The position numbers and the translations under genes are program-made. The notes under the pieces were generated by a model. The model did no database searches. It worked only from the letters and a program-made list of their open reading frames with translations, and was not told where the DNA came from. A DNA stretch of 34,778 nucleotides from Saccoglossus kowalevskii. Its lineage: Eukaryota > Hemichordata > Enteropneusta > Harrimaniidae. Of the stretch, positions 439 to 34,778 are shown piece by piece. The stretch covers positions 1,499,667-1,534,444 of the forward strand of contig NW_003121911.1 of the NCBI RefSeq assembly GCF_000003605.2. The letters run 5' to 3'. The number at the start of each line of letters is the position of its first letter. Positions within the stretch are counted from its first letter, which is position 1.

Positions 439-1548
439 GTAAGGAACCATTAACAGATCATATATTTTGCTGTATTATTTGCGAATTTTTATACAATTCA
501 TGTGTTTTTTTGTTCTATAAGGAACTTTGAGATTAATACAGTGCATGAAGTTTTATTGAGGAACATGAAGATTAATTGTTTATGTTCAGAATTTTGCCAC
601 CTAATGTTTAGCCAGTATTTTTCAGATGTATTATTGTATTTTATTTTCACAGTTGCCATACAAAGAAAACATCATACTAGATGACTAATTTGTTTGTGTT
701 CATTCAGAATTCCTACTTGATTTTCAATAGACAAGGTTGTAATAATTATGCTATGTTTTGTTTTTTTTAGAAAAGAGAATGCAGTTTTGATGACAAATAA
801 AGGGGATACTCACCTGCAACTAACTGCAAAAAATATACTCCATCAACTACAAGATTTTAGCAAGAAAATGGAAAACCAGTTTGAAACGAGCTTCTTGTTT
901 TATTTTTCTGGACATTCTTCTAACAGTGGAGAGGGTCTTGTTTGTAATGGTGGCGATGATTTAGAAGTGTCAGAGTTGCGCAAATGCCTTTACAAGATGA
1001 AATGTACACAGTTGCTCATCATCCTTGATTGCTGTTTTGCTGCCGACAGGGGGCCTATGCCGAGTAACTTGTTATTTTCGAAGTCCGTGGATGCCGACTG
1101 TGAAAACGACCAAGAGATGAAAGAATGTGGTGTTCCGATTCTATATAAATTTGATACAGGTGATGATAGTGTTGTAAAAGCCAAAAATGCCAATTCAGCA
1201 TCCAAGTCTGCAAATTACAGTGTCGTGCAGTGGTCAGCAAGTAAAGGCCATGAGGAATCAATCGGTTACCGCAACAGAAAGCTCAGTTTGTTTACCCAGC
1301 ATATCGTTGCCGGACTACGTGCTGCTGAGAAGTGTCACCTGAATCCGTACGAGTCACAAGTATGTCATGAATGCTCAAATTACCGAGACAAAGTAATGCG
1401 ACAGGGGTATATTACTTTGAACGATCTCGCTGACTACGTCTTCTACCATGTCAAAGAAGGTAGCATAAGGGAACATAGGGAACAAACGCCACTGACGGTC
1501 TCTGAAGAAAATACCAGAAAGCGACTACTTGGTTATTGTAGGAAATGA
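318..1548 (+). CDS. C14 caspase/metacaspase-like protease, 3' part (two last exons)
   Basis: The 3' end of a cysteine protease gene of the C14 (caspase-fold) superfamily. Two exons are visible, 318-438 (enters in phase 1, leaves in phase 2) and 771-1548, joined as ...GAIK-KENAVL..., giving 299 residues plus stop. The order fits the family: a first beta-strand (YGLFIGTND, then DASSVYKEF), a hydrophobic strand ending in the catalytic histidine (FYFSGHSS; His codon 913-915), a second strand ending in the catalytic cysteine (LLIILDCCFAA; likely the second Cys, 1033-1035), then a later block (QWSASKGHEES...SLFTQHIVAGL) and a C-terminal ITLNDL...QTPL segment. The DCC motif resembles metacaspases and bacterial caspase-family proteins rather than QACRG of animal apoptotic caspases. 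No stop or frameshift interrupts it. N-terminal exons, and any adaptor domain on them, lie outside the window. Family assignment is strong; substrate and pathway are unknown. Confidence 0.82.
771..1548 (+). CDS. protease terminal exon with His/Cys dyad
   Basis: Acceptor is a T-tract plus 'ttag' ending at 770, entering in phase 2. The exon runs without a break to TGA at 1546-1548 and carries both catalytic motifs (His 913-915; Cys pair 1030-1035). An ATG at 748 lies upstream of the acceptor, inside the intron, so it is not taken as the start. Confidence 0.82.
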
Positions 1549-10224: not shown

Positions 10225-10558
10225 TACAAACACAAATAGTGTCATTGCACTATGGTTTAGTTACGTAAACGAAGGAAAACATTCACAAGGTACGGACTAA
10301 GATATTTGTTGATGTCTTATTCAACCCCAACTCTGTTACTCGACTTATTGTTATTTGATCTGTCTGTGGTACTTTTGCCAAAAAACACCCCATCAATTGC
10401 TAGGACTCCATTGAAAACGAGCTCGTCTCCATAACAACAAACACGGCGTGGTCCCGATTTAGTCTTTGTGGCTCTAACCACCAAACAACAATTCCAATGA
10501 ACATTGTAATGGTTTTGTGCTTTTTTGTATGCCATATAATAAAAGGCAAGTCGTATAG
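10225..10558 (+). promoter_or_regulatory. upstream block of EGF gene A, shared by genes B and C
   Basis: This noncoding block recurs upstream of all three EGF genes. Shared anchors, in order, are cattcacaagg, a ...tgtcttattca... segment, a ...gactccattga... segment, acaacaa, and (A and B only) ccaccaaacaacaatt followed by about 65 further alignable nt ending aagtcgtata. It ends about 370 nt before the inferred 5' UTR donor. An open minus-strand frame covers it in A, but the aligned frame is broken in B, so conservation is not of that protein. It is probably a promoter or proximal enhancer, inferred only from position and paralogue conservation. Confidence 0.5.
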
Positions 10559-10889
10559 GTGTAATAGCGTTTGTCGTTATTACAAGATGTCACTAAAAAT
10601 AACACTGACTTATAATATTTTATAGTAAAGCAGATCCAATTTGAACAACGTGTGCAGACGGTAACGACAATGTCACTTTTCTGTGGCTTTTTAGTTATTT
10701 GTAAAGAAACACAAGGAAGTTGTTTGCTTAACCATATTTTAACGCCTCGAAAGTTATAAATATGTCTGTCGTGATTTTATTTTTTTGTTTACTTGTTTAG
10801 TCGAATCTAACTTCTTCATGAATAATTAATGCATTAACATAATACTTAGTGACATCACTATTTTACTCCCTATATATTTATTCTGTTAT

Positions 10890-10928
10890 ATTACGGTGCA
10901 CTGCTGAGCCCTGTGATTCAAACTTGGG
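10890..10928 (+). other. inferred 5' UTR exon of EGF gene A (3' end)
   Basis: The donor gtaagt begins at 10929, and the exon sequence gtgcactgctgagccctg resembles gtgcactaagtcctgcgac of gene B. The first ~40 nt of the following intron also align with B and C. A TATA-like tatatattt lies at about 10871-10880. The transcription start is not known; the left boundary is a guess. Confidence 0.4.
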
Positions 10929-11920
10929 GTAAGTTATTATTCAGACATTTTTTACACTGTAATCCAGTACTTCAACAACGTTCATGTTATCCAATGGCCA
11001 TGTATAGACACGTGTGTTTACCTCGTGAAGTGTGTTTTATTCAAATTACTAAACGTTGACCGAACATGGTTCAGTTAGTCTAAGATTGGATTGGATTCAA
11101 TATATCTTGATTTCTCTAAAGCAACTCACTCATTATTGGTAAACAAAATGGCTCTGCTCGTTTTTTGGCAATAGTTATGATTGAACGTGTTTCACGGGTA
11201 AAAGACAGATGATTCATTCTCACAGCTAAATTAAATTAGACCACACATGATAGTTGTGTATTGTGGTCTGCTTTAAGGGATATTAAAGATTGGATGTACA
11301 GCAACAAATTAAAGCTCATTTCTGAAAAAACACACAGATATTATGGTAATTGGCAATCCATGTCAATTTAACAAAGTTATAATCCGAGCTCGGTTGAATT
11401 TGACTGAGTGTTTATTTATGCCAGTCTTTGATTATGTTCGCAAACTGGTGTGATAAGCATGGATAACCGTGTCAGTGTTGTGACTAAATCGCCGTTTAAA
11501 CACCTACGTAAAAATTCCCAAATTGGAAAATGTTTATCATTGAAGACTATAGAGATTCTTGTTTATGCGTTTCTTGGTTCTTGATTATTGCAATAGCCTG
11601 CTGTATGACGTAACACAAATAGAGATGAATATTACAGGGAGTGCAGAATGCAGCTGTTCGATTAATTCTGGGGACAAGACGTTGAGAACATATCACGTTT
11701 TTTTTACCAGAGTTTCAGTCTGTTTTATTTGTTTTACTTGGCATACCAATATCATCGAGATAATAAATTACACGGATGATCCCAGCCCAGAGTTGTATGC
11801 ACTTGTCGCTATCTATGACTTCAAACAATGCAATTAAATATACATTATAATTATACAGCAATGTATGAAAATGCTTACATAACTGATTGTAATGGTGTCG
11901 ACTTTAGTTTGTTCTTATAG

Positions 11921-11991
11921 TTTTACGATGAGTCTACTGTTGTACATCGTAGTGTGTTTGGTATCATTGCCTAAGGCGTTGACCATTACCG
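11921..11991 (+). CDS. EGF gene A exon 1: signal peptide
   Basis: Acceptor 'ttcttatag' ends at 11920, then 7 nt of 5' UTR (ttttacg) and ATG at 11928. The signal peptide is MSLLLYIVVC followed by LVSLPKALT; donor gtgagt starts at 11992 in phase 1. The same 7-nt leader precedes the ATG in gene B, which supports this start. Confidence 0.85.
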
Positions 11992-14900
11992 GTGAGTGGT
12001 ATTAGGCTAATATTATCATTTCAGAATTCAGCAAAATAAATGCAGAATTTCCGAAGACAATTATTGTTGTTCTCTCTACAAGAACCAAATAAACAATATT
12101 CAAAAGAAACAGTACATTCTATATATTATATAGTACTGCAATTGAAAAGGATTTCTATAGTCGGTTTAATCGTGTGTGTAATCTGAACCAATGTATGGTC
12201 AATGTTCAGTGACCTGTGATGGACAATCAATGATATTTGTAAAAGAACAGGGTGGAGTTTTGACGTTAGTTTGCTCGTTATGTCTGCAATCAACATTCCC
12301 ACGTACGTTTGATGAGATGAGTGCATGCACTCCATTCATATTCATATATTTGTCACGTGACTAGTTTCAGCGTGTGTCTGAGTGATGTCATACTTATTAG
12401 ACATGGCTTGAAAACACGTCGATTGCTTGACGTGTGTAGTTAGATAAATAAATATATATATATACAAATATATATTTTTTAATAATCATGTTAATTCTAC
12501 ATGTTAATGAATACATTTGATTACAAATCATAATTACGCAAAAACGTGGTTCTTGCAGTCCATAACTAAATATTTGTTGAATTCTATGATTAAAAACAGC
12601 AATTGTATGTACCAAGCCATTTCGTGCCCGGGAGTTCTCATCTGTAACATTACCGCGATTTATACCAAATTCTAGACCCATACACGTCATGTTATACTCG
12701 TCCAAATCTCAAATATAAAAACAGTCTGTATTAAACATTGTATTTGTTCTTACAGTATGTGACCAAGTCTGTGTACATGCGTCTTCTTGCGATGCAAACA
12801 CTGACGGCTGTGCTTGTAACGCCGGGTGGTCTGGAACACAGTGCGGTGAGACTTGCGCTTTAGGGATTGACCATTACAAACTTAAAATATAGGGTAGATA
12901 CTTGAGGGTCTGCACATCAAAGCACTGGAGAGGAGAAATTACCACACACATATTCGATGTGCAGTTGTGTAGCAACAGGATTGTGCATAAAACAATATAT
13001 TATTGTGACATCGAAATATTGAGCAAAAAAGTGGCTATTTTATTTTTTCAGGCAAGTGTCTGTCATTTGTTAACGTTTCTAATATGTCCTTTTCTGTTTC
13101 AGATGGGTGTACTAATAATGACGTGTGTGGTCACGGTTCGTGTGTAGGCGGCAGTTGTGTCTGTGATTTGCAATGGATAGGAGAAACGTGTGGTACGTGT
13201 TTTCTGTATGTACAATAATATATTGTAGAAGTTAAAAACTACATACATGTGTATTTCAAACAACATTGCTGTTGTGTTGTTTTGTTTATATGTAATTTAC
13301 AAAGTGTGCAATTATGCGTTCTGATTGGTCGAAGGTTGTATTATAAGGAAGAAATACATGTGTTGAATTTATTTTGGTAGATAAATGTGGTTCTGGTACA
13401 TGTGTACATGGAGAATGTACCGCTGATAGTGGTTACACAGAGTGTGCCTGTGACGAAGGATGGGAACTTGATAGATGCAGTAGGTATACACTACACTGCC
13501 ATTTTGCTTCAATGTTAATTACTCTTCAGTCATCTTGTTTTTTTCTCTTGATGAAAAATTTCCTCCCTGTTATATAGGGTGGTACGCATATCGGTTTTCA
13601 AAACTGTTGATGAATTGTTGTTTACGGAAACAGTTATAAGCTGTTGGGTAAAAATATTAACGATTTAAAATATAATGAAAAGTGTATTGACATTTTGCAT
13701 AGTCATTGCATTGATGCTAACTGTTCCAATAATGTTGGGAATAGTTCATTAAACAACAATGAGAAGTAAAGGCACATACATCATAATCGATGTTGCAAAG
13801 TAGACTATGATTAGAGTTCCTGCCCATTCCTAGAAAAATGTATGAAATATTTGTGCTTTAATGGATATGAAGAAAAGTACATTTACAACGTTTACAATTT
13901 CAAAATATTGAATAGTTTTAAGACATTTTAATAATAGTAGGTTTATTTCTACACAAAAGAATCAATTTTTAACCATAATGAACAACGGATAAATGATTGT
14001 GCATTAACTATAACATTTATAAGTTGTGAATAAAATAGGTGACGTATACATTTGTATACACGTCCACGAACAGATTCTTGCAATTATGATAGAAACAAAC
14101 TTTTGGCCCGAGAATAATGATATTGTCGTAAAAATATTAAAGCGTTCGCTAGCTTTACAAAAACAAATCAAACTAAATTGTAAATACTATCTTCGTTGCA
14201 CTGTATATTATGTTTCAGGGGTATCATGTGACCAAATAACCAAATGTTATATGTAATTATGTATTTTATTTAGTCTGTTATTTCGCTGTTTTCATTTCGG
14301 CATCTCGTTCACAATTCATGATTAACAGGAAACTGTTTGACCAGTACTAATCCTTATATCAAATTATATGTTTGTTTTTTTCTAGATACGAATTTTATTC
14401 TTCTAGAAGCGAGGCATTTTTCTCTAATTTTTGTAGAGTTTAGATCTTATATCTGATAGAATGCCATATTTGTGTCTACTAGCAATATTTGATAATATCA
14501 CGTAGCCCTTTTTTGATATCCATATTACTATTTCCTTGTCTTTTGACCCATAGTTAGATACCTCGAATATTAGGGTTTTTGCACTTATGCAGTGTATTGG
14601 CATAGGCACATTTCCACACAATTGTATACATTTTTAAATCAACTTCTCCTTACGTCTGATGTATTCAAAACAGTCGCCATTAAAGGCGGACTGCACCTAG
14701 GATATTTATTTTTTTAATTAACCCAGTGGGATGCAATTTGGCGAATAAACCACAGTTGCTAGAAGAACCGTGAAAAAAACCTAGGTATATCTTCTGTGAG
14801 TTTCTGGTCTATCTATAAAACAAATAGTCTAGCGGCCGTCTAGCGGCCCTCCATCTTTTAATCATTATCATCTAAGACAATGGTTATTTAAGACAATTTC

Positions 14901-17900
14901 TCGCTCTCTCTCTCACTCTCTTCCTCACAAACATTTTGCTAAGATTGGTGTATGGTGGACGATGACAATGTATGTAACCATGGAACCTGTAACCGAGAAA
15001 CCGGACTGTGTGATTGTGATGAAGGATTCAGTGGTTACGATTGCGGTAAGACACGTTCTCGTTTCAAATCTTTGATTTTCCAAGCAATCTAAAGGGAAAT
15101 TGGTGATGCCTTTAAGGGGTATAATAAAGTGCTACGCGTTTGGTATTCGATGTTCAGTGTTACGTGTAAAATACTTATTCATTTCATTAATCTTCAAAGT
15201 TAGACATAAGGTACATTATCAATACTTTGTCCAACTAACTTGCTTATTGATGTGTTGAAGACGGTAAATCAATAATTTTAAAAGAATAATTTTAAAGGCA
15301 AATTTGATGAATTTACAGGTAGTATGCCACATTACAATTGTTGACTAACGTAATTGTAATTGCCGTTATATAAGATCTTAGTGGTGTATGTACGTATGTA
15401 GGGGAAAAGTACATGAGTATAATATTTGTGTGTTGTCATGTTATAGCTACGTGTGGGGATGGTACATGTGTGCATGGGGAGTGTACAGAAGAGAGTGGTT
15501 ACACTGAGTGTCTTTGTGATAGGGGTTGGAATGGAACACTCTGTGGTAGGTACAATATATTGTATCCATATATTTCATCTGTCAATGTATAGTCCGACAG
15601 CAACTCTTGGGTACATTCGTAATTCTAACATTCTAGTTCAGTCGCATAATTTCGTATTCATCATAACAGCCTGCTAACGGTACACTTATTCCAATTAACT
15701 ACAGTACAACAAAGTGCGTCGGTGCAAATATCTATCGTAACCTTACAGTGTAATGTATATACTGGTATATTGTATCCAGCATTACCATCTCTTTTCTGTA
15801 TACACAACATAGTTGTGCTGTCTATAGTGACTCTTATGTGAGCCCCTTATAGTAATTCGTCCAATATCACTACAATAAATCGCACATACGAACGAATTCA
15901 CAATTAAAATCACAACCACTCAATAAAAATAATTGATTTTTGTTATATTATTGTTGTTTCCCCTATTTTATCTAAGATGTCTGTGTGTCCGATGACGCCT
16001 GTATCTATGGTAACTGTGACACAGACACTGGCACGTGTGAGTGTGATGCAGGATGGAGTGGATATGATTGTGGTAAGTCAATAGTACGTCCTAATTCCGT
16101 CCGTTTCTTAAGAGCCAGAATTTTTGATATCCTTAAAAGTAAATAAAACCTTAAATATAGGAAAGTATACCTTGGTGAATGTACATTACGTAACGTGATT
16201 AATTATTCATGAATATGATGTTTTCTCATTTTAGGAACATGTGGACCTGGTACGTGCATACATGGTACATGTTCTGGCTCTTCTTGCATATGTTCGGGAC
16301 CGTGGACAGGATTACGATGTGGTATATTCACCTTTTCTCTTAGTTTCATAAATAGAAATGTAATGGACATCAAGGTGCATGCACTAATACATGTTATTCA
16401 CGATTACACGATTTCTACATTATTTCTTTTTGAAATTACATTGCAGCTGTTTATCACCATATCACTAATATGTGATTGGATATTTTTATGTATTTGAATG
16501 TTTTTGCATCACCAAGTCTTAATAGTGCAATGCTCACAGCTATTGCGAGGCAGCAACATTGTCATCTTCATCGTAGAATGTATGTTTGAGGTGACATCAG
16601 ATTCTGGTCTTGTTTTTAAAATATTCACTATGTTCTTTTTGGATTGGAACAATAGCAAATAAACTGAGCCACGAGCGTAAAGGATGAAGATACAATATAC
16701 AAATCTTGGATGATAGAAATCCTTGCTCAAAAGTTAAAAGTTTAGCAGATGGTAACTATGATGGTATCAAACAGTGCAGCGTTGTTTTGACAGCAATTCA
16801 AGTTCCAAGTAACTAATGAACTCAGCAAATAATGTGACTTGTAATATGCGACAATAAACGATAAGTAGTTTCTGGAGATCGGAACTGACTGTCTCTATTG
16901 GCCTGTTACGTATAACAGGTCGTTTGTTTTGAATATGAAAACAAGTAATTCCATTAACTCACTATAAACGTGATTGAAACTAGAAAACGTAAATTTAAAA
17001 GTGTCAAGTTTGGTTAAGAAAGAAAACAATAAATAAACGTATTTATATGACGTAGCTTATATACAAAATAATATATTTATGTGTTGAAACATATTTCATA
17101 CACATGTCACCTTTTTTTAGATGTACTATAAATCAATATTGAAAAAATCCACAGAAACTTCAATTAACATATTTGATTGCTAATACCATACATTATCCAT
17201 CAAGCCTTTGTTTAAAAAAATTGTTCTAGTTTTTGTCTATAAATGCATAGTGATTGGATAGGATTCGACCTACTCCTATGTTCTCATTTTGGTTAGGTGC
17301 AAGAAAGGACTGGTCTTATACTAGGAAATACCAAAACCACACGACACGGTAACTTGTCGGGTTTTCGAATCAGGATTATATACACCATTTATGAGTGAAC
17401 GTTCTACTCCAGCATTGTCCAGTGTTTCAGCACAAACATGATAATATCCATGGTAACTACTCAAGTCCAAGCTTAATAACGGTCAGGATAGTAGACCGCG
17501 TATGGTGCCGATATTTAAAGTCATATAAGAACGTGTGAGAGAGAAACTTATGTTAATTGTGCGTTTTTGTAAAAAAGAAGTGAGGATGAATCTAGTGAAA
17601 ATAGCAACTTGGGCTTTAAAGGCGACTAAAATGCATTTGAAGTTCCGGAGATTGGTTACAAGTAATAATTCTCCCTTACTATCAAGTGCTGTTGGGGCTC
17701 TAGTGGTCACGCAGACATTGTAAATATATGCAGGGTTACTGTGTAACAATTCTCAACTCACTGGCAAGATGCAAAAACAAACAATATCAAATTCAACGAG
17801 TTCATCACGACTTCACATCCCAGAAGTATTAGTATTTGGTAGACCATTCGTGTTTGTCAAAAATACAACTGAAAATTTAGTTATACAAAAGCTAATTTCA

Positions 17901-20411
17901 TCTGTGTAATTTTGTTTGGTATAAATATATTGCGAGGCAGATGAACACTTTGTGGATATCATACAACAATGTAAATGTGTTTAGTGTTTAATTCTAAGTC
18001 AACGCAACGAGTCTTTGTCAGTGACAAATTGAGGAATTGTATTTATGAAATCTCTACCTGTTTTATCTCACAGTATTGGAATGTTTCATTATTGACTCCC
18101 GTGTGCGAAGCACAAAAGGGAGTCTTTGCAGTTACCCTGTCTGTATGTCTGTATGTATGTATGTATGTATGTATGTATGTATGTATGTATGTATGATATG
18201 TATGTATGTATGTCACTTTTTTTGTTCCACCGTTATCTCAAGAACCACTAATCAAATTTTGGTGAAACTTGGTACATAGATGCTCTGGGATAATGCGCAG
18301 AGTTGATTAGGTTTTGGTAAAAATCNNNNNNNNNNNNNNNNNNNNNNNNNNNNNNNNNNNNNNNNNNNNNNNNNNNNNNNNNNNNNNNNNNNNNNNNNNN
18401 NNNNNNNNNNNNNNNNNNNNNNNNNNNNNNNNNNNNNNNNNNNNNNNNNNNNNNNNNNNNNNNNNNNNNNNNNNNNNNNNNNNNNNNNNNNNNNNNNNNN
18501 NNNNNNNNNNNNNNNNNNNNNNNNNNNNNNNNNNNNNNNNNNNNNNNNNNNNNNNNNNNNNNNNNNNNNNNNNNNNNNNNNTTTTCAGCTCTTGATATTT
18601 CGAGTAGTAATGATCACGTTTCAATGAAACTTAGCACATAGTTACTTGAGGACTGTGCAGAGACCTAATTAGTTTTTGGGTAAATATTTGTGCATATTAA
18701 TCACCTTATTAGCATAAATAGTTAATTTTCAGCTTTTCACCTGATACATGTATCTCAAGTACTATCATCACATTTCAATGAGACTTGCGACATAGATATT
18801 CTAGGACTATGCAGAGACCTAATTAATTTTGGGATAAATAATTGTGCCTATTAATTACCTAATTTGCATAATTAGTTAATTTTTTGCTGTTCTATGATGT
18901 CTAAAAACCACTCATTGGATTTAAATGAAACTTTTAAAGAGTACCTGTCACATTTCAATGAACCTAAGACTATGCACCATATTAGTTTTTGGTAAATATT
19001 TATGCTTCTTAATCACCTAATTAACATAATTAATTATAACTGATATCTCAAGTATTGATCATCACATTTGAATAAAACTTGGTACATAAATGCTCTAGGA
19101 CAATAAACAGTCTGATTAATTTTGGGTTAAAATCTGTAAAAAATTTTTTTGGTTCTAATCACATTTCAATGAAACTTGGTACATTGTGCAGACCTTATTA
19201 GTTTTACACTTAAATCTGTTCATATTAGTTACCTTATTTGCATAATTAGTTTTCAGCTATTCCATCAATATCTCAAGTATAAGTAATTTTGAATTAATTT
19301 TTAATGTGTCTCCAAAACTCTCAGCACACGGGAGTTCTTTCTAAGCTTTCTTTGATTTTATTTTAATGTATCCACCTCGTCTGTAGTGAGTAAATTTTTC
19401 TCATGTTCATGACCATTCGTCGTATTTATTTATTTTTACTTTCAAATTAAAATTGGCGTAAATATTCAAAGAAAATTAAAACTCATCACTACATCAATCT
19501 CGGAAATACTCAATACTCATTGCTATATTAACTGACTGCATACCACCGCGGAGAATTGACCCTTTTATTGCTCAGATCATGCATAAGTTTAATAACACTG
19601 TTTGTACGCAAAGAAAAATGTAAAGCCGAATATAAAGGTCGTTCCCTTCCAGATATCCGACTAACCAATTGTTTAAAAACAGATTTAAACTGCTTTCTTT
19701 AACAAAACAAGTTGAAAGCACTATTCATGAATAAAAAAAATCATGTCGCAACGTTTTTATCAAAACCCAGTATTCTTGATTATTCCACAAATGAATTAAT
19801 TTATTTATTATTGTGTAGATACATGTGGCAGTACGTTGTGTTATATCGGAGAATGTTATACCAACGACTATGGGTCTGATATGACTTGTGTATGCTATAA
19901 TGGCTGGACCGGTGGACACTGTGATCAGGGTAGGTGTTGAAACGCACAATAGTTATTACTGTTCAACATACCTTATTGTATGTTTATATTGATGTTAAAT
20001 AATTTATATTGGTTAACATACCCTACGGTATTCTTATATCAGTAAAGAATTTTGTTATCGTTAACATTGTCGTTAGCTATATAATTGTTATTGATCTACA
20101 TTGTATTTTTAAGACGTGCAGCATATTTTGACCCCTGTATCAAGTGTGCTTGTATTTATACTACGGTACTTGATGTCTGTTTAGTAGCCTGACATGTAGG
20201 TGTGAGTAGGCCCTCACCGGCCGAACGGCATCAGACCTCACTGTGTTGGGTTTGGAGCACTGCTGAGGGCGCAACGCGATCTCGTCAGTCTTTCTGTTTA
20301 ACAGCTCAGAGAGTTTATTATTGTACTGTTACAGATAACAGTAAAGCTGAACTGGTCGAGACAAGCATGTTGATGCTAGTTATGACTGGCTTAGTCATAT
20401 TTGCTGGATGA
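11928..20411 (+). CDS. EGF gene A: secreted/surface protein with 8 EGF modules (spliced, 304 aa)
   Basis: Spliced gene with ten coding exons: 11928-11991, 12756-12845, 13103-13192, 13381-13479, 14944-15045, 15447-15545, 15977-16072, 16235-16321, 19819-19929, 20335-20411. Total is 915 nt, giving 304 residues plus stop. Exon 1 is a signal peptide (MSLLLYIVVCLVSL). Exons 2-9 each encode one six-cysteine EGF module ending C-x-C-x8-C with a conserved aromatic (usually GW or GF), with two-residue linkers, much like the compact arrays of tenascin-type EGF domains. Every internal junction is phase 1. No calcium-binding EGF consensus is visible. Exon 10 gives a hydrophobic tail with no cytoplasmic extension, so a GPI-anchor signal is likely. 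The first module has the O-fucose pattern C2-x4-S/T-C3 and the fifth has an N-G-T sequon. The role is unknown; an extracellular adhesion, ligand or recognition protein is inferred. Confidence 0.85.
12150..12325. other. conserved block in intron 1 of gene A
   Basis: This aligns to gene B 23617-23885, which carries about 73 extra nt near its start. The core 12212-12319 has no indel relative to B over 108 nt. It is not part of the spliced product as I read it. It may be a regulatory element or the relic of a coding sequence. Confidence 0.5.
12756..12845 (+). CDS. EGF gene A exon 2: EGF module 1
   Basis: Cysteine spacing is C-x3-C-x5-C-x6-C-x-C-x8-C. CVHASSC fits the POFUT1 O-fucose consensus (C2-x4-S/T-C3), the only module in the gene that does. 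Acceptor 'cttacag', donor gtgaga. Confidence 0.85.
13103..13192 (+). CDS. EGF gene A exon 3: EGF module 2
   Basis: Spacing is C-x5-C-x4-C-x4-C-x-C-x8-C with CGHGSC and a DLQWIGETC end. Acceptor 'tgtttcag', donor gtacgt. Confidence 0.85.
13381..13479 (+). CDS. EGF gene A exon 4: EGF module 3
   Basis: Spacing is C-x4-C-x4-C-x8-C-x-C-x8-C with CGSGTCVHGEC. Acceptor 'ttggtag'. The donor gtaggt starts at 13480 after A, not the usual G, so the junction codon becomes AAT (Asn). A frame running on past the donor to 13577 is intronic. Confidence 0.82.
14944..15045 (+). CDS. EGF gene A exon 5: EGF module 4
   Basis: Spacing is C-x7-C-x4-C-x6-C-x-C-x8-C. The acceptor is an unusual AAG (ttgctaag) where gene B has ttgctcag. 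The donor gtaagacacgtt is shared with B. Confidence 0.82.
15447..15545 (+). CDS. EGF gene A exon 6: EGF module 5
   Basis: Spacing is C-x4-C-x4-C-x8-C-x-C-x8-C. The encoded module is identical in gene B, and the DNA differs at one base. It carries an N-G-T glycosylation sequon (GWNGTLC). Acceptor 'gttatag', donor gtaggt. Confidence 0.87.
15977..16072 (+). CDS. EGF gene A exon 7: EGF module 6
   Basis: Spacing is C-x5-C-x4-C-x6-C-x-C-x8-C, with SDDACIYGNC and DAGWSGYDC. Acceptor is AAG (tatctaag), as in gene B; donor gtaagt. Confidence 0.87.
16235..16321 (+). CDS. EGF gene A exon 8: EGF module 7
   Basis: The shortest module, C-x4-C-x4-C-x4-C-x-C-x8-C (CGPGTCIHGTC...GPWTGLRC). Acceptor 'tcattttag'; the donor gtatat is weak but matches gtataa in B. 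The intron before it (162 nt) is alignable to B near its 3' end. Confidence 0.85.
16322..18094. other. left part of expanded intron 8 of gene A
   Basis: Noncoding intron sequence with no recognised exon. The open frames at 16509-16730 (minus) and 17483-17749 (both strands) match nothing I know and lack EGF cysteine patterns. Gene B's whole intron 8 is only 551 nt. Confidence 0.5.
18141..18213. repeat. (TATG)n microsatellite
   Basis: Nearly perfect tetranucleotide run with one interruption (tatgatatg), inside the left end of the intron 8 element. Confidence 0.9.
18326..18581. other. assembly gap (256 N)
   Basis: A run of N inside the tandem-repeat element. The true repeat copy number here is unknown. 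Confidence 0.99.
19819..19929 (+). CDS. EGF gene A exon 9: EGF module 8
   Basis: The longest module, C-x4-C-x4-C-x10-C-x-C-x8-C, with CGSTLCYIGEC and YNGWTGGHC. It is identical at protein level to gene B exon 9. Acceptor 'ttgtgtag', donor gtaggt. Confidence 0.87.
20335..20411 (+). CDS. EGF gene A exon 10: hydrophobic C-terminal tail
   Basis: Acceptor 'tgttacag' ends at 20334 in phase 1, TGA at 20409-20411. It encodes DNSKAELVETS, then a hydrophobic stretch (MLMLVMTGLVIFAG) that ends the protein. A small-residue site (DNS), a short polar spacer and a terminal hydrophobic run fit a GPI-anchor signal. The frame open from 20202 is intronic read-through. Confidence 0.8.
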
Positions 20412-20830
20412 TATATATACCTCTTCCACAACTGACCAATTTCGGGAATTTTGTGTTCTCGATATTCCGTCCTATTGCGTAAGCCACTTGTAACATTTCA
20501 AAGATGGTCCAATACGGTGCAGGGTTTCGCAATTTTCAAAATCAAATATTGAACTGGAGAACGATTTTAGTAATTATTGCACGGTCATTTACCTCTGAAT
20601 ATAGAATTCACATGGAACAACAATTTTAATAAATCAACTGGCTCAATGCGCTTACCCGTCTTCACCCCCCCCCCCACTTATAATTAAAATACATATATAC
20701 ATGTTTACCTTCTTCATTACTCACTATAACATGTAGCGATCGAAATAGTCAATTATTTCTTTTCAATTGTTGTTTTATATTCATTGTTTTGTTTTTACAC
20801 TTAATAAATTGATTTTTAAATTAGTGTTGT
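20412..20830 (+). other. 3' UTR of EGF gene A
   Basis: AATAAA at 20803-20808 is the likely poly(A) signal. A segment ending 'gcacggtc' at about 20553-20588, built on gaacgatttt and ttgcac words, matches a similar segment downstream of gene B (about 29548-29575). The duplicated unit therefore reaches at least this far. Confidence 0.45.
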
Positions 20831-22209
20831 TTCTCGTTTTTGTATTATGAATAGCCTACGATAAAACACAGATCACATATTCTACATGTCTACCAATTCT
20901 ACCAATCTTCCATGCTGTGTTTGAAAATTGAATAAGATGTTATACTTTTCTCAAATATTCCAAAATATTTGTAACAAAGTACATCTGCACAAATCTGGCC
21001 ACAAAGGAATTACAAGGGTGGCATCATGCGCATTCTCAATCAGTAGGTATGTGCCAAACGAAGAGGACAATAATGGAACCTGGTTTGCCGTGTTATAAAC
21101 AGTACGTTTTGTTGTAATTGCTTTTTCTACAGGCTTATCTAAATATAGGGTTAAAAGTACAACAGAAGTACTGAAAATTGTTTTTCAGCTATATCCATTG
21201 GCTATTGCCGATAATAACATTTCTAGAACGTGACAAGTGTAGAGGTGATGACCATAGCCGTGCATTTAACTAACAAAACCCCACCAAAGTGCACAAAAAC
21301 AACCTTCCTACTTAGACCTTAACATGCCGCGTGCTTGTTCACCAAAAGTGAACTCTACAGTGCGCCGCTTACGATTAATTGCTTTCAATCAGGGGTGTAT
21401 TCTGCCCTCGCCCGATAGGACTGAGCACCACAATAAGTTCGATGCTTTCGCTGTATGTAACGTTGAGCAAATGTCACATAAAGTTGTGAAATGAGACTAC
21501 ACAAAAAACAGCCAATTAGTGAATTGAAATATTACCAATTCGTAAATGTAGAAATGGGTAACAAGACAATATCCCAGCACCATCTATTGAACATTTTCAC
21601 ACTTAAAGTTGCAAGTTCATTGTCAAACAATAATTGTCGTTCAATAGTAAGTAATTTGCATACAATGAAATTAAATAATGGGGAAGTACTGGTTTACATA
21701 TTTACTAACATATATGTATGACATGGTGTAGACCATAAACAATACAGTGTGACCGACAGGGTGGCGTGTTGTCCATTAAAGAGAACCTTGTTGTCTTACG
21801 GGTGTTAAATGACTTTCAACGAGTTTCTTTCTTTCTACAATAGAATCTTCACAATGCATTAAGAGGAAAGTATATTCCAATTTACTGCTATACACATCCT
21901 AAATTTATATAACTAATGTCAACAAAAATACAGGGACATGCCAGGGAGTGTAAGTAACTTTTTAAGGCTGCCAGGGCCAGGGATGCCAGTGTAATTTATT
22001 ATAAGTATAAGAGTCAATTATTTATTCTTGTTTTATTACCTGTAAATTTTATTACAGTTTCTTCCAATCTTATAATTTTTTAGTGCACTATGAATAACTT
22101 ATAGTTAATTAATTTTGTGAATGTTTACTGTGAGTGCTGTTCTCGTGTAAATTTGCGAACCAATGTATTAGAGTTACGTGAAGGTTATTGGATTTTTACA
22201 AATGCTAAA
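20831..22209. other. intergenic between EGF genes A and B
   Basis: No gene or clear repeat recognised. The 76-codon frame at 21491-21721 has no resemblance to a known family. Confidence 0.45.
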
Positions 22210-22520
22210 AAAAAGTTACATTTAGATATATGAACAAAGGCAAACATTCTCAAGGTTCAATCAAATTAAAATATTGTTGGTGTCTTATTCAGCCCTATCC
22301 TCCGTAGCATATTGTTCTTTGGCCTCTTTGTGTACTTTTGTCAACAGCACCCCCAACAACTGCTGGGATTCCATTGAAAAAAGAAACGGGTCTCCTTAAC
22401 AACAAGAACTGTGTGATCCCGATTCATTCCCGAGGTTCCTACCACCAAACAACAATTTCAATGAATATCGTAATGGTATAGTACTTTTTGTATGCGATAT
22501 AATAACAGACAAGTCGTATA
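22210..22520 (+). promoter_or_regulatory. upstream block of EGF gene B, shared by genes A and C
   Basis: Counterpart of 10225-10558. The run from ccaccaaacaacaatt to aagtcgtata (about 80 nt) aligns with A at roughly four of five positions, and the ttggtgtcttattcagccc part matches gene C best. It ends about 90 nt before the inferred 5' UTR donor, much closer than in A. Confidence 0.5.
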
Positions 22521-22559
22521 CCGTGGTTTCCAGGTGATATTGCTCCACATTTAGGTTTT

Positions 22560-22609
22560 CTGCCATTTTGTAGTGCACTAAGTCCTGCGACACGGACGAA
22601 AATATTTAG
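22560..22609 (+). other. inferred 5' UTR exon of EGF gene B (3' end)
   Basis: Donor gtaagttatta begins at 22610 and aligns with the gene A donor region. The left boundary is unknown. Confidence 0.4.
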
Positions 22610-23403
22610 GTAAGTTATTACTCTGACAGTTTGACCACATATTCTAGTAATTTTATTCAATGTCCACTTACATCGTGAAATGTTTTATGCAACGTTGTTT
22701 TGTTTTGTTTTCAAATTACCGAACGTTATTATACGGCTGTTCATTATATCGTTCATATAGTTTATAATTGTGGCTCGGTGAATGTCGCTTGGGTAAATTT
22801 ATTCGATACATTTATTTCTCAATTTTGGTTCTTTGACGAGTATACCACAAATGTGTAAACAGAATTGGGAATTAGAATTTCCCCTCAATTATAATGTGAA
22901 TTAGTACAATTTATTGCGGAATGTTGGTGCCATGAACTAATCGCTAGATGACAGGCGTGTGTAACTCGGAACAAAAGCCACAACGCACCTGAAGATTCGA
23001 CGAGGTCAGGTGATCAAAGGTGCTTCGCGATAATCAACAGAAACCTTAATTTATTGACGTGTCATGCTTAACCCTAGCAACTTAAAATATATGATTCTAC
23101 GCACGTTCTAGTTGTCTCTTTTTACAAACATTTCTTTTGAATCTTGTGAAAAGTTTGAACTACGATATACTGTCATTTTGTTATTCCCATTCCTAGTACG
23201 ACCCCGACTGTATGTTGCTAAGTACCGAGGATACACGTTCAATTAGTCGGCGATATTAATTAATTTTCGGTTTTGATTACTTGATTACTCTTTAACAATT
23301 ACTGCCATAAATTTGTTTTGTGCGTGTGTTTCAATCATAAAATCAAGACGATGGACTTACATCGATAATTGTAATGGTGTCGACTTTCCTTTATAGTTTT
23401 ACG

Positions 23404-29338
<5,935 letters not shown>

Positions 29339-29580
29339 CAATTTGTGGGGTTCTGGTGCACGTTATATCGTGTCCGATTAGTTAGTTCATGGCGCAAACG
29401 CTCACCGTTTCGTGAATAAAAATAAATGAGACAATTTAATGCAGCTTTTTTTTAAAAAAAATCAGTGTATCAAATCAAATATTTGCCTAACATGCAATGG
29501 TGTTATCGATGGGTCGATCCATGTTAGATAGATATTTGGTGAACGATTTTCGTAATCATTGCACGATCGGCTGCGAACGA
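29339..29580 (+). other. 3' UTR/3' flank of EGF gene B
   Basis: AATAAA occurs at 29415-29420 and again at 29421-29426, close to the stop. The segment at about 29548-29575 matches the gene A 3' flank. Confidence 0.5.
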
Positions 29581-31844
29581 GGATGCAGATTGAACTACTC
29601 GGACAAGAATATTACGTGATACTGAAACGCGAATCAGCAGTGTGGATGAGCATTTAAAGTATCTTTTACTTCTTATACATTTGCTTTCTTATATTGATAT
29701 CACCTATTTGTAAATATACATTCAGTATTAAACTTTGCTATCATAATGAATATGATAAAATCACGTTCTCCGTGTGACTGGTGTAAGTGTAAATATGTTG
29801 TATCACTGTGCAAGCAGGCACATATTGGGTATTTTATATATTTCATCGATTCGTTAATTTGCTGATGGGACCGGGTGATTCAGCGGGCAGATGTTGTTGA
29901 CAGATACCGCATACACAGTTCGCTTTGTGTAACATACCATCAATTGCGGTTTCCGTAACTCGACAGTGCAATTCATTGCTAGCCATATCCATACAATAGT
30001 TTCCATTCACATACAGAGAATTTATATGACATTCTGTGTCGAGTACCTTAGCTATAAGCAGCTGCAACTCTGAGTATGTCGCATGTGATTGGTTGTAACT
30101 GTGTTATTTTTGATAAATCGCGTGTTCTGTCAATTTTAATTCGAAAAGAAAGTATGTATATATTTGTAATCGTAATTGTTATTGAAGAAAATTAAAGTAC
30201 AGTACAAGAAAACAAACACGGTGTTATTTAAGTCAAAGTTTCAGCCATTTGAAATCATAAGGGGTGAAGCTGTGTATTTCTTCGCAGTGTCTAATCTGTA
30301 CATTTTTCTTGAATGAGCCATGATTATTTTGTTTCTGTAACACGCATTATTTTCTTAGTGTCTATGTTTTTTTATAAGTCTTCCTGCCATCCCGTGATTT
30401 CGAGTGGCCGACCCCTAAGTCGGTTTTGCATTATGCAACAAATTATTTGCTTGAGCGAAGAAATATACCCAGAGAGGTTCCGTTGTTTGTTTTCTTAAAC
30501 GTATACTGTAATCTTATCAAGATATTGGTTATTATTATAATACATGTTGCTACTGTATTATAATATAGTATGAGTTTTATTGATCAGAGAATACACCATT
30601 ATATTTGAGAACTCCTCAAATACGCGAAGTAAATTATTGTGTAGCTGGAACTGACCCGGCCAGTCGGGAAACAAAGTAGGGAAGCAAGCCGTTCTCAGGG
30701 TAGCGTAAAAACCCGAGGCAACCGAAAGGAATGATGGGTTCCTATCGTTACTTGTAGGCATAAAGGAGTATGTTTGTACCTAGACTTGAGATACTGTTAG
30801 AAACTAAATTAGGGGCCAGTCACAATAGAAATCAATTCATACCAGATCATAATCAAAAGTACAAGTTCAAATTAAAGAGACACATGATATTTACAACCAT
30901 TGGATAGTTTCTTTGTTATGTGGTGAACTGGAATTGTTGTGTCACTTTATCAGACCCTTCCTGTCACGGACGCTAACCTGGGTTAGTGTTTTACGCCTAC
31001 ATATACAGTTCATTTAATTATTCCTGTCACATATATTGTTGATTACCTACTACGGAGGCAAACTGAAGGGCCAATCATTTTGGAGGTTAGATAACTTACA
31101 AACCATCATTGCGATCGGGCGAAATAAGGGGCACTGCAGGAACATTGCCACACATCATTGTGGACCGCCTTCCTTTCGTTATAACTGCATATTAGCTGGG
31201 AATAACTCGCACTGCGTGAATTAAGGGCGTTCACCTTCTGTCATCGGTCCGAGAGGGAGCATAAGTTTCTTTTTTTAAGGTACTAGTACCTCTATTACAA
31301 ACAAATTTCGTTGCTTATTAACTAATAACAATAGCTGGTTCTTATGTTAATTAATGAGCGATTAAAAGTTTGTCAATGTAACAATACAGCAGCTGATCTT
31401 TCCTATGCGGACAAACATTTCTAACACGAACTAATAAACTTCTTGATTATCGTGTACAGCGAAAAAATCATTTTGAATTATATTCAACATGTATACGACC
31501 AAATAATCGCTGAACTGGGTTATGACATTCAACGAATCCCTTGAAATGAATGAGAATCATACAAAATCAATACTGTAACATATAAATTATGAAAGGGCAA
31601 TTTTCAACTACAAATGGAAAGTTAATTCACATAAATTTGAATATTCAGAATTACAACTTATGGACATGGTAATAAACATAGAAAAAATACTGGTGTTGTA
31701 AGAGTTTGACATTGGGCATGATAAACGTATCAAAAATTAAACCCAGCAGGACAACTTCTTGCTGCTGTTTAGGTAATACTGCGAGTACACTATTGAAATT
31801 TGACAAACAGTGACATAGATTGGAGTAAGATATTATTTGAAATT
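29581..31844. other. intergenic between EGF genes B and C
   Basis: No convincing gene. A cysteine-containing 74-codon frame on the minus strand (30067-29843) and a 62-codon frame at 31036-31224 are recorded, but match no family I know. No ordered repeat seen. Confidence 0.4.
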
Positions 31845-32055
31845 TAACTAATAGTGTCACATACAATAGGCTAAATTAGATCTTTTGTGAACGGAAGCCA
31901 TTCACAGGGATCAAGCGAGTATAATTGTTGGTGTTTTATTCAGGCCCATCCTCTGTAGTAATGCGCAAGCCTTTATTATATTCGTCTATTCTTCCCATCA
32001 TCGAATACTGGGATTCTGTTGATAATGAATCAGGTCTTTGTAACAACAACAGTAC
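31845..32055 (+). promoter_or_regulatory. upstream block of EGF gene C, shared by genes A and B
   Basis: It shares aatagtgtca and cattcaca with A, and ttgttggtgt.ttattcag with B, followed by cccatcctctgtag (B has ccctatcctccgtag), tactgggattc and acaacaa. Position relative to the inferred noncoding exon matches the other copies. Confidence 0.5.
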
Positions 32056-32254
32056 GGTACGGATTATTAGCTTTTTAAAGCACTGACCGCCGCATATTTT
32101 ATTTTAAAAAAATAGGCGTGTAGTGCCTGCGTGAGACAATAGGAGAAATCACAGTACTATGGTAGTTTTCTCTCCAAATATCATCGTTGAACAGCAAACT
32201 TATTGAAAACCAAAGTTAAGACAGACTACTAAGGAATATTGCCGTGTCAACAAT

Positions 32255-32296
32255 TGTATTTTGTAATACGCTGAACACTACGACGCAAGCAAACAG
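32255..32296 (+). other. inferred 5' UTR exon of EGF gene C (3' end)
   Basis: Donor gtgagtaacta begins at 32297. The intron start resembles those of A and B, each reaching a 'aatccag' or 'ttctag' word after about 40 nt. The left boundary is unknown. Confidence 0.35.
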
Positions 32297-33410
32297 GTGA
32301 GTAACTATCTAAACATTTCGACAATGGTTATAATCCAGGGCTACGGTGTTTTTTCTTCGCGAATAAAGTGCTCACTTTTTTACGCGATTCTTTAGTTTTT
32401 ACGGTGATGTATTGGTTTGATAATTTATTTATCTTTGAGATGTTGTCAAATTTGCTAACAGGTAAAAACTGCCTAGTATCTCTTGTTATACATGTATCAG
32501 ACAAATTTTGAAAAAAATATAAATTTTGAAAACACTTACTGTTTAATACTTGAGAGCGAAGGTGAACAACTATGATATCCTGTAAGTAGGAAATTTGAGT
32601 TTATTGTGAAATCATACAACTCCAATATACTAAGTATTGTAAATCATAGACGAATACCAGTAAAGTTATCGACTGTTGGGTTCCGTCACAGTGACCACAG
32701 GGGCAACTAATTTATTGCTTTTTGTATGTGTAACCGAGGCAACTAGCTTGGAATATGTGACTCCACTCTTTGTTACTGGTCTGTAACTAGTTGCATGCAT
32801 TCAGTACATTTCAAAATACGAAAAAAACTGTATTTTTTTAGACCTATCACCGTATCACGGTGACACGTCAACAGACTGCCGAATGTTAATTATTCAATTA
32901 TTTTATGATATTTTGGCTTTAGTATTATATTATAACTATGTATACGTTGCGGTGTAATTATTATTATTGAAATTATTATCAATGTATCACGTGTTTACTA
33001 TTCCTATTTTATGTTCCCAATTGCCGTTGGTACGAAGCGTTGCTACGTGTTTTCGTTGATATCAGTAGTTTATTTAATTATCCATATATGTAATTAAATC
33101 ATTTACTAGTATTTCTCGACAATTGACATACACTCCTGTCTCGAATACCTTCAGTGTGTATCACGTGTCGCATACATTTAACTTTAATCACTGTTTTTTC
33201 AATTATTAGTTTAATTGCACATTTCAATCACGTACTGAAGTTGTTAAGTTTTACACTAATACTACTGACTGCTTCTATGCCAACGACTACATGGTACACT
33301 ACACCAAAGGTAACCACGCACGCATTCCAATACACAAACGATGGAATCAAGATCACGAACTTCCATAAATAAGTGTTTATGTATTATTTTTTTCTTTTCA
33401 CAGCTATAAG

Positions 33411-33471
33411 ATGCGGTTACTGGTGTACATTTCACTGTGTGTGCTGTCATTGTCTCTGGTACAGGCACTCA
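33411..33471 (+). CDS. EGF gene C exon 1: signal peptide (partial gene)
   Basis: Acceptor 'tcttttcacag' ends at 33403, then 7 nt (ctataag) and ATG at 33411. It encodes MRLLVYISLC followed by VLSLSLVQAL, like the first exons of A and B. Donor gtaagt starts at 33472 in phase 1, the same phase as A and B. No EGF exon follows before the window ends 1.3 kb later, which is compatible with a first intron like gene B's (1183 nt) or longer. The gene is therefore cut by the window edge, or is an orphan exon. Confidence 0.65.
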
Positions 33472-34778
33472 GTAAGTAATACGGTTCACTGTCAAAAATC
33501 AACGTCAGCTTTCAGAATTTCAATAAAAGAACCAGTTAAACATTCTTCCGATTCTTCATCGTGTAATAGCATAGTGTTGTTCCACTAGATAATACAATCT
33601 ATACATTTAGCCCGAGAACGTTCTTTTCCGAAAGCCGTCGTTCCATGTAAGACTATTTACGTATTCGATGACAGATTATAGGTTAATGGCGCGTGCTTTC
33701 AACGCGTCCTTTGAGTGTGAATAGAGACGCTGACCCGTGCTAAACAATGCTATTATATTCTTAACGGTTTATTCCGCTAGCAGGATGCTAGATTTAAATT
33801 CACAGTCAGGAATTTGAAGGGCAATAGCATAATGCCATAAGGCGAAATACTAAGATGAAAAGTCCTACGAATGCGTTGTCCTGAACCTGAAAGTATTATT
33901 ATATACATCCCAACACACGCTCATTTATTACCGCGCCATCTTGCGACGAAGCGCTTTCGTGATGTCAAAATGGCGTAAATGGTTGAAAGCAAGTAGTTCA
34001 CAACGATGGCTGTGTTTGTCATTTAGAATAGTGTAAATTTAAAAAAAGCAAGATTTATTTATTTTTCGGACCACCAATATTGACGCTATCCTGGGGGCGG
34101 AGTACGTCATAAGACGTTCCACGTTGCTAAGACGCGCACAACTGTGTACCACGTATTTCTCGAACTCCGCACAGTTCGATACGCGTCACTTATCATCACT
34201 GCACAAAGCAGCTTTGCATAGAACTCATTTGCATATTCGAATATGTTCGAACTGCAAGACCCTGTGGGTTAACAAAGTTATGCGTAAGTCACTCGGTTAC
34301 TTTAATCGCTTTCATAGGACGTTTCATGCCATGGCTCCGAATAAATGTCCCGTTAATTAGATTAAAATATACATGAATTGCGTTAGAAAAGTGCAATTCT
34401 TTCCCAGATGAGAAAGCATTAGATTGTACAATAAATGACTAACTTTATAAATTTACAAAAACCTTTGTGTTCTATGGCAGTTAGACGCGGAAAATCGAAC
34501 CCGTTCAAGCCAGAAATAGTATTGAAATATTCACCAGAATACAAGATGAACGGAAATGTTAGGAAACCCCTTTCAGTGAAATTAGTATTTAATGTTTCTT
34601 TCCCAACTATATTCGTTAACAGAACGTTTTTTTCCCTCCAAGTTTTGGTGTATCACGCGCGCCATTTCACTACTATAACATTACCTTGCAAAATATAGTC
34701 CGCGATAAAATGGTTCGTATTTACGTTTTTACTGAAGTCTGACATTATAATAGTTCGGATGTCACATACGTTTTTTCC
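33472..34778. other. intron 1 of gene C / 3' edge of window
   Basis: No EGF cysteine pattern on either strand. A patch at about 34090-34320 is richer in CpG than its surroundings and has a GC-box-like gggggcgg (about 34093) and a CRE-like tacgtcat (about 34102). The 78- and 87-codon frames here match no family I recognise. Confidence 0.4.

Follow-up and report, generated by a model that had tools for sequence, protein, structure and literature searches.

What kind of protein is encoded by a tandem pair of genes that each specify a row of eight epidermal growth factor (EGF) modules, and what may the differences between the two copies say about its role? The pair in question, genes A and B, lies in a stretch of 34,778 nucleotides (C1465:1499667-1534444 of the 572 Mb assembly in which all genome searches were made; hereafter the window), together with what appears to be the beginning of a third copy, C. 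Each gene splices to an open frame of 304 amino acids that ends in a TGA stop (A, 11928-20411; B, 23404-29338), and both spliced translations read as a signal peptide, eight EGF modules and a hydrophobic tail. We favour, with moderate confidence and from the sequence itself, the reading that A, B and the partly visible C form a small tandem family in a probable hemichordate, whose products are predicted to be glycosylphosphatidylinositol (GPI)-anchored EGF rods for adhesion or recognition, with a constant base and a diverged tip.

Exon finding and splicing gave ten coding exons and nine introns in each gene, with GT-AG borders throughout, and the two genes lie head-to-tail on the + strand. This bears out the earlier note, which had described two complete ten-exon genes with intact frames and splice sites on one strand, and had read the same signal peptide, module array and tail in both. 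Each EGF module occupies exactly one exon, in phase 1 at both ends. A scan of the window for EGF exons returned 16 matches on the + strand, one per module, and 0 on the - strand, against 0 matches in 100 simulated windows (first-order Markov versions of the window), and chance is therefore excluded as the source of these exons. A single long gene spanning A and B was considered and rejected: an upstream block, a signal-peptide exon, a stop codon and nearby AATAAA signals (at 20628 and 20803 in A, at 29415 and 29421 in B) are present separately in each unit. Coding begins seven bases past an acceptor AG in both genes (11928 and 23404), and a GTAAGT donor is common to both further upstream (10929 and 22610), within a weak similarity (10928-10951 and 22609-22632, 87.5%, blastn E 0.13); because the ATG exon follows an acceptor so closely and the upstream donor is shared, we infer a non-coding 5' exon, which would bring each gene to eleven exons. 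Self-comparison shows that A and B share an upstream block of ~300 bp (74%), the region in and around the first coding exon (74%), an element in intron 1 (84%) and most later exons, and that most of their intron sequence is no longer alignable.

All eight modules of each protein have six cysteines (Cys), or 48 module Cys, and the six Cys columns are invariant in 14/14 aligned modules (14 of the 16 were taken, EGF5 and EGF8 of B being left out as identical to those of A). The EGF spacing of these six Cys and the Pfam family EGF_2, above its cut-off (51 and 52 bits in the two proteins), place A and B among the EGF-like (hEGF) module proteins. EGF_TEN (67 and 78 bits), EGF_Teneurin (57 and 67 bits) and EGF_laminin are above cut-off in both as well, and B also matches a Delta/Jagged EGF profile above cut-off. 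The earlier note had proposed a protein search of the spliced 304-residue products. Every Pfam match at E <= 0.01 is to an EGF family, with no non-EGF domain (including ZP, fibronectin III and fibrinogen-type) found at that threshold; in the PDB, B comes closest to the EGF regions of teneurins, and next to Delta, WIF1 and Jagged. Neither protein contains an RGD or KGD motif. Because only two residues separate the last Cys of one module from the first Cys of the next, the short linkers suggest a stiff rod.

A gradient of divergence runs along this array. Over 300 codons, A and B differ with a nonsynonymous divergence (dN) of 0.14 and a synonymous divergence (dS) of 0.48, by which measure the pair is under purifying selection overall. 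Differences at non-Cys positions number 49/104 in EGF1-4 and 5/105 in EGF5-8 (Fisher p 3e-13), and from EGF1 to EGF8 they run 14/25, 14/24, 10/27, 11/28, 0/27, 4/26, 1/23 and 0/29 (modules aligned by hand, gaps scored as differences). Exons 2-5 have dN 0.24 and dS 0.87, whilst exons 7-8 have dN 0.036 and dS 0.46, and the two sets differ in their ratio of changes (Fisher test on rounded counts, p 0.0045); exons 7-8 lie outside the near-identical tracts, and the non-coding part of their block is identical at 142/199 positions. Exons 6 and 9 have dS of only 0.05 and 0.16, both with dN 0, and the non-coding identity in their blocks is 151/158, compared with 776/1004 in the other alignable blocks (p 3.6e-9). 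Since these two blocks are near-identical with their intron sequence included, we infer gene conversion as the cause of the tracts. Exons 6 and 9 being near-identical, and exons 7-8 having low dN outside such tracts, the membrane-proximal half would be under constraint and in part homogenised, with the distal half freer, and diverged distal modules set over a constant proximal half hint at a recognition role. Of the functions that the earlier note had floated, recognition draws this indirect support, and no evidence emerged for gamete interaction or defence.

Several points weigh against this picture. The divergence between A and B is a single pairwise comparison. The non-coding signal of conversion comes mostly from exon 9 (124/128), with exon 6 giving 27/30; the sequence flanking exon 5 is likewise similar (31/33), though exon 5 itself is identical at 79/102 positions; and the conversion test was limited to BLAST-alignable blocks, so that its background is itself selected. 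In EGF1-4 dN/dS is 0.28, not above 1, and there is therefore no evidence of positive or diversifying selection on the distal modules.

How the proteins are held, if they are held at all, depends on their two ends. The N-terminal hydrophobic segment starts within the first three residues, and a conserved tail, LVETS[MI]L[ML]LV[MV]TGLV, closes both proteins, its ~14 hydrophobic residues reaching or nearly reaching the C-terminus; by hydropathy and inspection this is the combination of N-terminal signal and short C-terminal hydrophobic signal found in GPI-anchored EGF-array proteins, and the tail makes membrane or GPI anchoring a plausible prediction. Through an 8-base indel in the last exon (20297-20411 against 29215-29338, + strand), A and B read their final residues in different frames, with hydrophobicity largely kept. 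This would be expected of a tail that is cut off as a signal, and the pattern appears to suit a GPI signal of that kind better than a membrane-spanning helix whose cytosolic end has a function. Against a GPI signal, the tail of B ends in Arg-His-Ile, which is less typical. The same residues, placed after the hydrophobic stretch, would suit a short single-pass transmembrane protein whose tail crosses the membrane as a helix and leaves a few residues in the cytosol, as would the hydropathy of the tail, which over 13 residues reaches 2.6 in A and 2.8 in B; however, a stretch of ~14 residues is short for a plasma-membrane helix, A ends inside it, and the indel changed the frame of the last residues, so that no cytosolic motif is kept, and we regard this alternative as unlikely. 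Less likely again is a secreted ligand, decoy, matrix component or EGF-peptide precursor with no lasting membrane attachment: the signal peptide and EGF modules would agree with it, and EGF arrays are common among matrix proteins, but the hydrophobic C-terminal tail is conserved in both genes, the modules are joined by two residues, and there are no paired basic residues in the inter-module linkers of A or B.

The other two alternatives concern kinship and function. A system for gamete or self-recognition on the model of HrVC70, an EGF array of the ascidian egg coat, would be consistent with an EGF array in a probable deuterostome, with distal modules that are the most diverged between copies, and with one loose motif, in EGF1 of A and B, of the O-fucose type C2-x4-S/T-C3. 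That motif misses the stricter O-fucose consensus C2XXGG(S/T)C3 given in the available parts of PMC9265791, the Pfam search found no ZP domain, and the other regions depart from the HrVC70 pattern (differences between A and B: C1-C2 13/37, C2-C3 6/33, C3-C4 13/52, C4-C5 2/8, C5-C6 14/64), which leaves such a system improbable. We give the least credence to a derivative of a teneurin or TRIP, in which the teneurin EGF block was duplicated away from the remainder, even with eight EGF modules, both teneurin profiles above cut-off and teneurins as the top PDB matches of B on its side. The same genome holds a locus at C1492:594156-595530 (region 592656-596571), called teneurin-like from its EGF profile matches and Cys pattern alone, in which the second and fifth modules, in the order read, are each short of a Cys, and teneurins have two EGF modules each with a missing Cys; the modules of A and B, by contrast, all have six. 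Two modules of C1492 share one open stretch, as opposed to one module per phase-1 exon in A and B, C1492 scores only 19.7 bits against B, and the EGF_TEN registers of the two proteins differ (101-283 on 43-225 in A, 81-212 on 93-221 in B).

Under the favoured reading of GPI-anchored rods, a signal peptide, presumably cleaved, would take each protein into the secretory pathway, where it would fold as eight disulphide-bonded hEGF-type modules into a probably stiff rod, and the C-terminal hydrophobic signal would most likely lead to a GPI anchor at the cell surface. The four membrane-proximal modules would form a common stalk, whose likeness purifying selection and gene conversion maintain, and the four distal modules, diverged between paralogues, would most likely hold partner specificity, with binding at the tip. 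The most likely role would be cell-cell or cell-matrix adhesion or recognition. A bolder form of this, which we think a long shot, would make A, B and C hemichordate-specific, tandemly expanded receptors with a constant stalk and a variable tip for gamete, self or microbe recognition, in which conversion keeps the stalk whilst the distal four modules come to differ from copy to copy and perhaps from one individual to another. If the split between base and tip recurs in other hemichordates, the locus would represent a small recognition family in a phylum for which the literature listings give none; at present A and B are a well-formed duplicate pair whose tandem exons show homogenisation in patches.

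Copy C is less certain than A and B, because of weak E values under standard scoring and its absence from the protein searches. Under relaxed blastn scoring, its upstream block (31876-32049) matches B 22222-22405 (65%, E 1e-13) and its ATG-exon region (33345-33459) matches B 23341-23452 (64%, E 7e-7), the two being collinear with B; its pairings with A under standard blastn scoring are weak (E 0.037 for the upstream block, 0.011 for the ATG exon), and tblastn with the A and B proteins at E <= 0.01 does not list it. Within the window, copy C consists of the upstream block and the signal-peptide exon alone. Its EGF exons would fall past the window end, where the next 26 kb (contig positions 1534445-1560810) are N, as are the 37 kb before the window. 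The earlier note had spoken of at least three genes, of which two are complete and the third is a first coding exon with an upstream block; it had also suggested counting copies in the flanking scaffold, and in a neighbourhood of 232.9 kb, 125,635 bases of it N with both sides of the window included, tblastn at E <= 0.01 listed only A and B. Across the genome, A at E <= 0.001 gave 15 matches, all at the A/B locus, and B at E <= 1 gave 29, with 17 at the locus and 12 elsewhere, the latter all weak EGF matches (<=24.6 bits, 32-49% identity); these searches scored only 31 and 35 candidates, and distant members could be missed. No published description of such a tandem EGF-array family was found in the literature listings, which were partly incomplete.

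Features of genes A and B and of copy C, in positions of the window
Feature	Position	Strand	Evidence
A conserved upstream block, 74% to B 22221-22520, partly in copy C	10256..10557	+	blastn
A putative non-coding 5' exon with a guessed start; donor GTAAGT at 10929	10860..10928	+	donor shared with B, weak blastn similarity
A coding exon 1, signal peptide	11928..11991	+	splicing/translation
A intron-1 conserved element, 84% to B 23726-23879	12166..12318	+	self-comparison, genome search
A exon 2, EGF1	12756..12845	+	exon finding, splicing, EGF-exon scan
A exon 3, EGF2	13103..13192	+	exon finding, splicing, EGF-exon scan
A exon 4, EGF3	13381..13479	+	exon finding, splicing, EGF-exon scan
A exon 5, EGF4	14944..15045	+	exon finding, splicing, EGF-exon scan
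A exon 6, EGF5, looks homogenised with B	15447..15545	+	exon finding, splicing, EGF-exon scan
A exon 7, EGF6	15977..16072	+	exon finding, splicing, EGF-exon scan
A exon 8, EGF7	16235..16321	+	exon finding, splicing, EGF-exon scan
A exon 9, EGF8, looks homogenised with B including ~110 bp of next intron	19819..19929	+	exon finding, splicing, EGF-exon scan
A exon 10, hydrophobic tail, stop TGA	20335..20411	+	splicing/translation
B conserved upstream block	22221..22520	+	blastn
B coding exon 1, signal peptide	23404..23467	+	splicing/translation
B intron-1 conserved element	23726..23879	+	self-comparison, genome search
B exon 2, EGF1	24651..24737	+	exon finding, splicing, EGF-exon scan
B exon 3, EGF2	25526..25615	+	exon finding, splicing, EGF-exon scan
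B exon 4, EGF3	26183..26275	+	exon finding, splicing, EGF-exon scan
B exon 5, EGF4	26912..27013	+	exon finding, splicing, EGF-exon scan
B exon 6, EGF5	27268..27366	+	exon finding, splicing, EGF-exon scan
B exon 7, EGF6	27927..28022	+	exon finding, splicing, EGF-exon scan
B exon 8, EGF7	28210..28296	+	exon finding, splicing, EGF-exon scan
B exon 9, EGF8	28848..28958	+	exon finding, splicing, EGF-exon scan
B exon 10, hydrophobic tail, stop TGA	29253..29338	+	splicing/translation
Copy C upstream block	31876..32049	+	blastn, relaxed scoring
Copy C first coding exon: ATG, 20 hydrophobic-frame codons, phase-1 donor GTAAGT at 33472	33411..33471	+	sequence reading, similarity

The intron-1 element (154 bp, 84%) is, as DNA, more alike between the genes than exons 2 and 3, and the genome search listed no third place for it. 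Over 119 ungapped bases it has 20 differences; in its best + frame 7 codons have changed synonymously and 10 non-synonymously. A + frame stays open across the element in both genes, and so does a - frame. It is possibly an enhancer or a cassette exon. Elsewhere in the two genes, the long A intron between exons 8 and 9 contains a run of 256 N at 18326-18581, flanked on both sides by diverged repeats, and gene B carries a perfect (TAT)35 microsatellite at 26470-26574, between exons 4 and 5. Upstream of the cluster, a 275-residue open stretch at 721-1548 (+) has a caspase domain (Peptidase_C14, E 1.9e-10) and is probably one exon of another gene, and a 31-bp unit is arrayed in tandem at 1-243 in 7.9 copies. 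The window has 0 Rfam matches at gathering scores and 0 tRNA.

The mitochondrial contig of the assembly, C4830 (17,037 bp), reads atp6-cox3-nd3-nd4L-nd4-nd5-cob, nd6 on the minus strand, a presumed rRNA stretch, nd2, nd1, cox1 on the minus strand and cox2, gene names that we assume from the translations (COX1 also by Pfam); apart from the strand of cox1 the order is deuterostome-like. Opposite nine ATA codons of its COX1, aligned mammal sequence has Ile five times, Val twice, Leu once and Met once, as expected if ATA encodes Ile. ATA as Ile is common to echinoderms and hemichordates, and nd5-cob adjacency occurs in Xenoturbella and two hemichordates, according to the available parts of PMC2697986. 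Because of this adjacency and the apparent use of ATA for Ile on C4830, the host is taken to be a hemichordate, probably an acorn worm; against this, the inverted cox1 misfits the hemichordate gene orders, including that of Balanoglossus, in the same parts of that source.

Among known systems, the EGF repeats of teneurins and tenascins (hEGF type) are like the modules of A and B, which are compact, have six Cys and are joined by short linkers. Teneurins have seven or eight EGF repeats followed by a C-terminal fold of ~2000 residues, and their type II topology places an N-terminal domain inside the cell (PMC6428715, in the parts available). Unlike them, A and B stop at 304 amino acids (20411 and 29338) without such a fold, their hydrophobic segment begins too close to the N-terminus to leave an intracellular domain, and no module lacks a Cys. 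Membership of the teneurins, judged also against C1492, was rejected on these counts, and "teneurin-like EGF" is used here to describe nothing beyond the module. Tenascin EGF modules have the spacing X4CX3CX5CX4CXCX8C and are accompanied by heptads, fibronectin III and fibrinogen-type domains (PMC1578592); the C-x-C-x8-C end is common to A and B, whereas their earlier spacings vary and no fibronectin III or fibrinogen-type domain was found in them at E <= 0.01. The earlier note had not recognised the architecture as that of a named family, but to call it strange would be too strong: other lineages have GPI-tailed small EGF arrays and recognition proteins built of EGF arrays (PMC4922550 and PMC9265791, each in the parts available). 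Plasmodium P25/P28 proteins have a signal peptide, four EGF modules with 20-22 Cys in all and a short C-terminal GPI region, and are encoded by duplicated genes (PMC4922550); A and B resemble them, as an analogy with no descent claimed, in their signal, EGF array, short C-terminal signal and duplicated genes, but differ from these protist proteins in having eight modules, 48 module Cys and one module per exon. The ascidian egg-coat protein HrVC120/HrVC70, of which HrVC70 is the sperm receptor, has a signal peptide, 12 EGF modules and a C-terminal ZP domain (PMC9265791); A and B are like HrVC70 in joining a signal peptide to a long EGF array in a deuterostome, and unlike it in having eight modules and no detectable ZP domain. 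A and B belong to neither the P25/P28 nor the HrVC70 family, both of which serve, by analogy, as functional precedents only.

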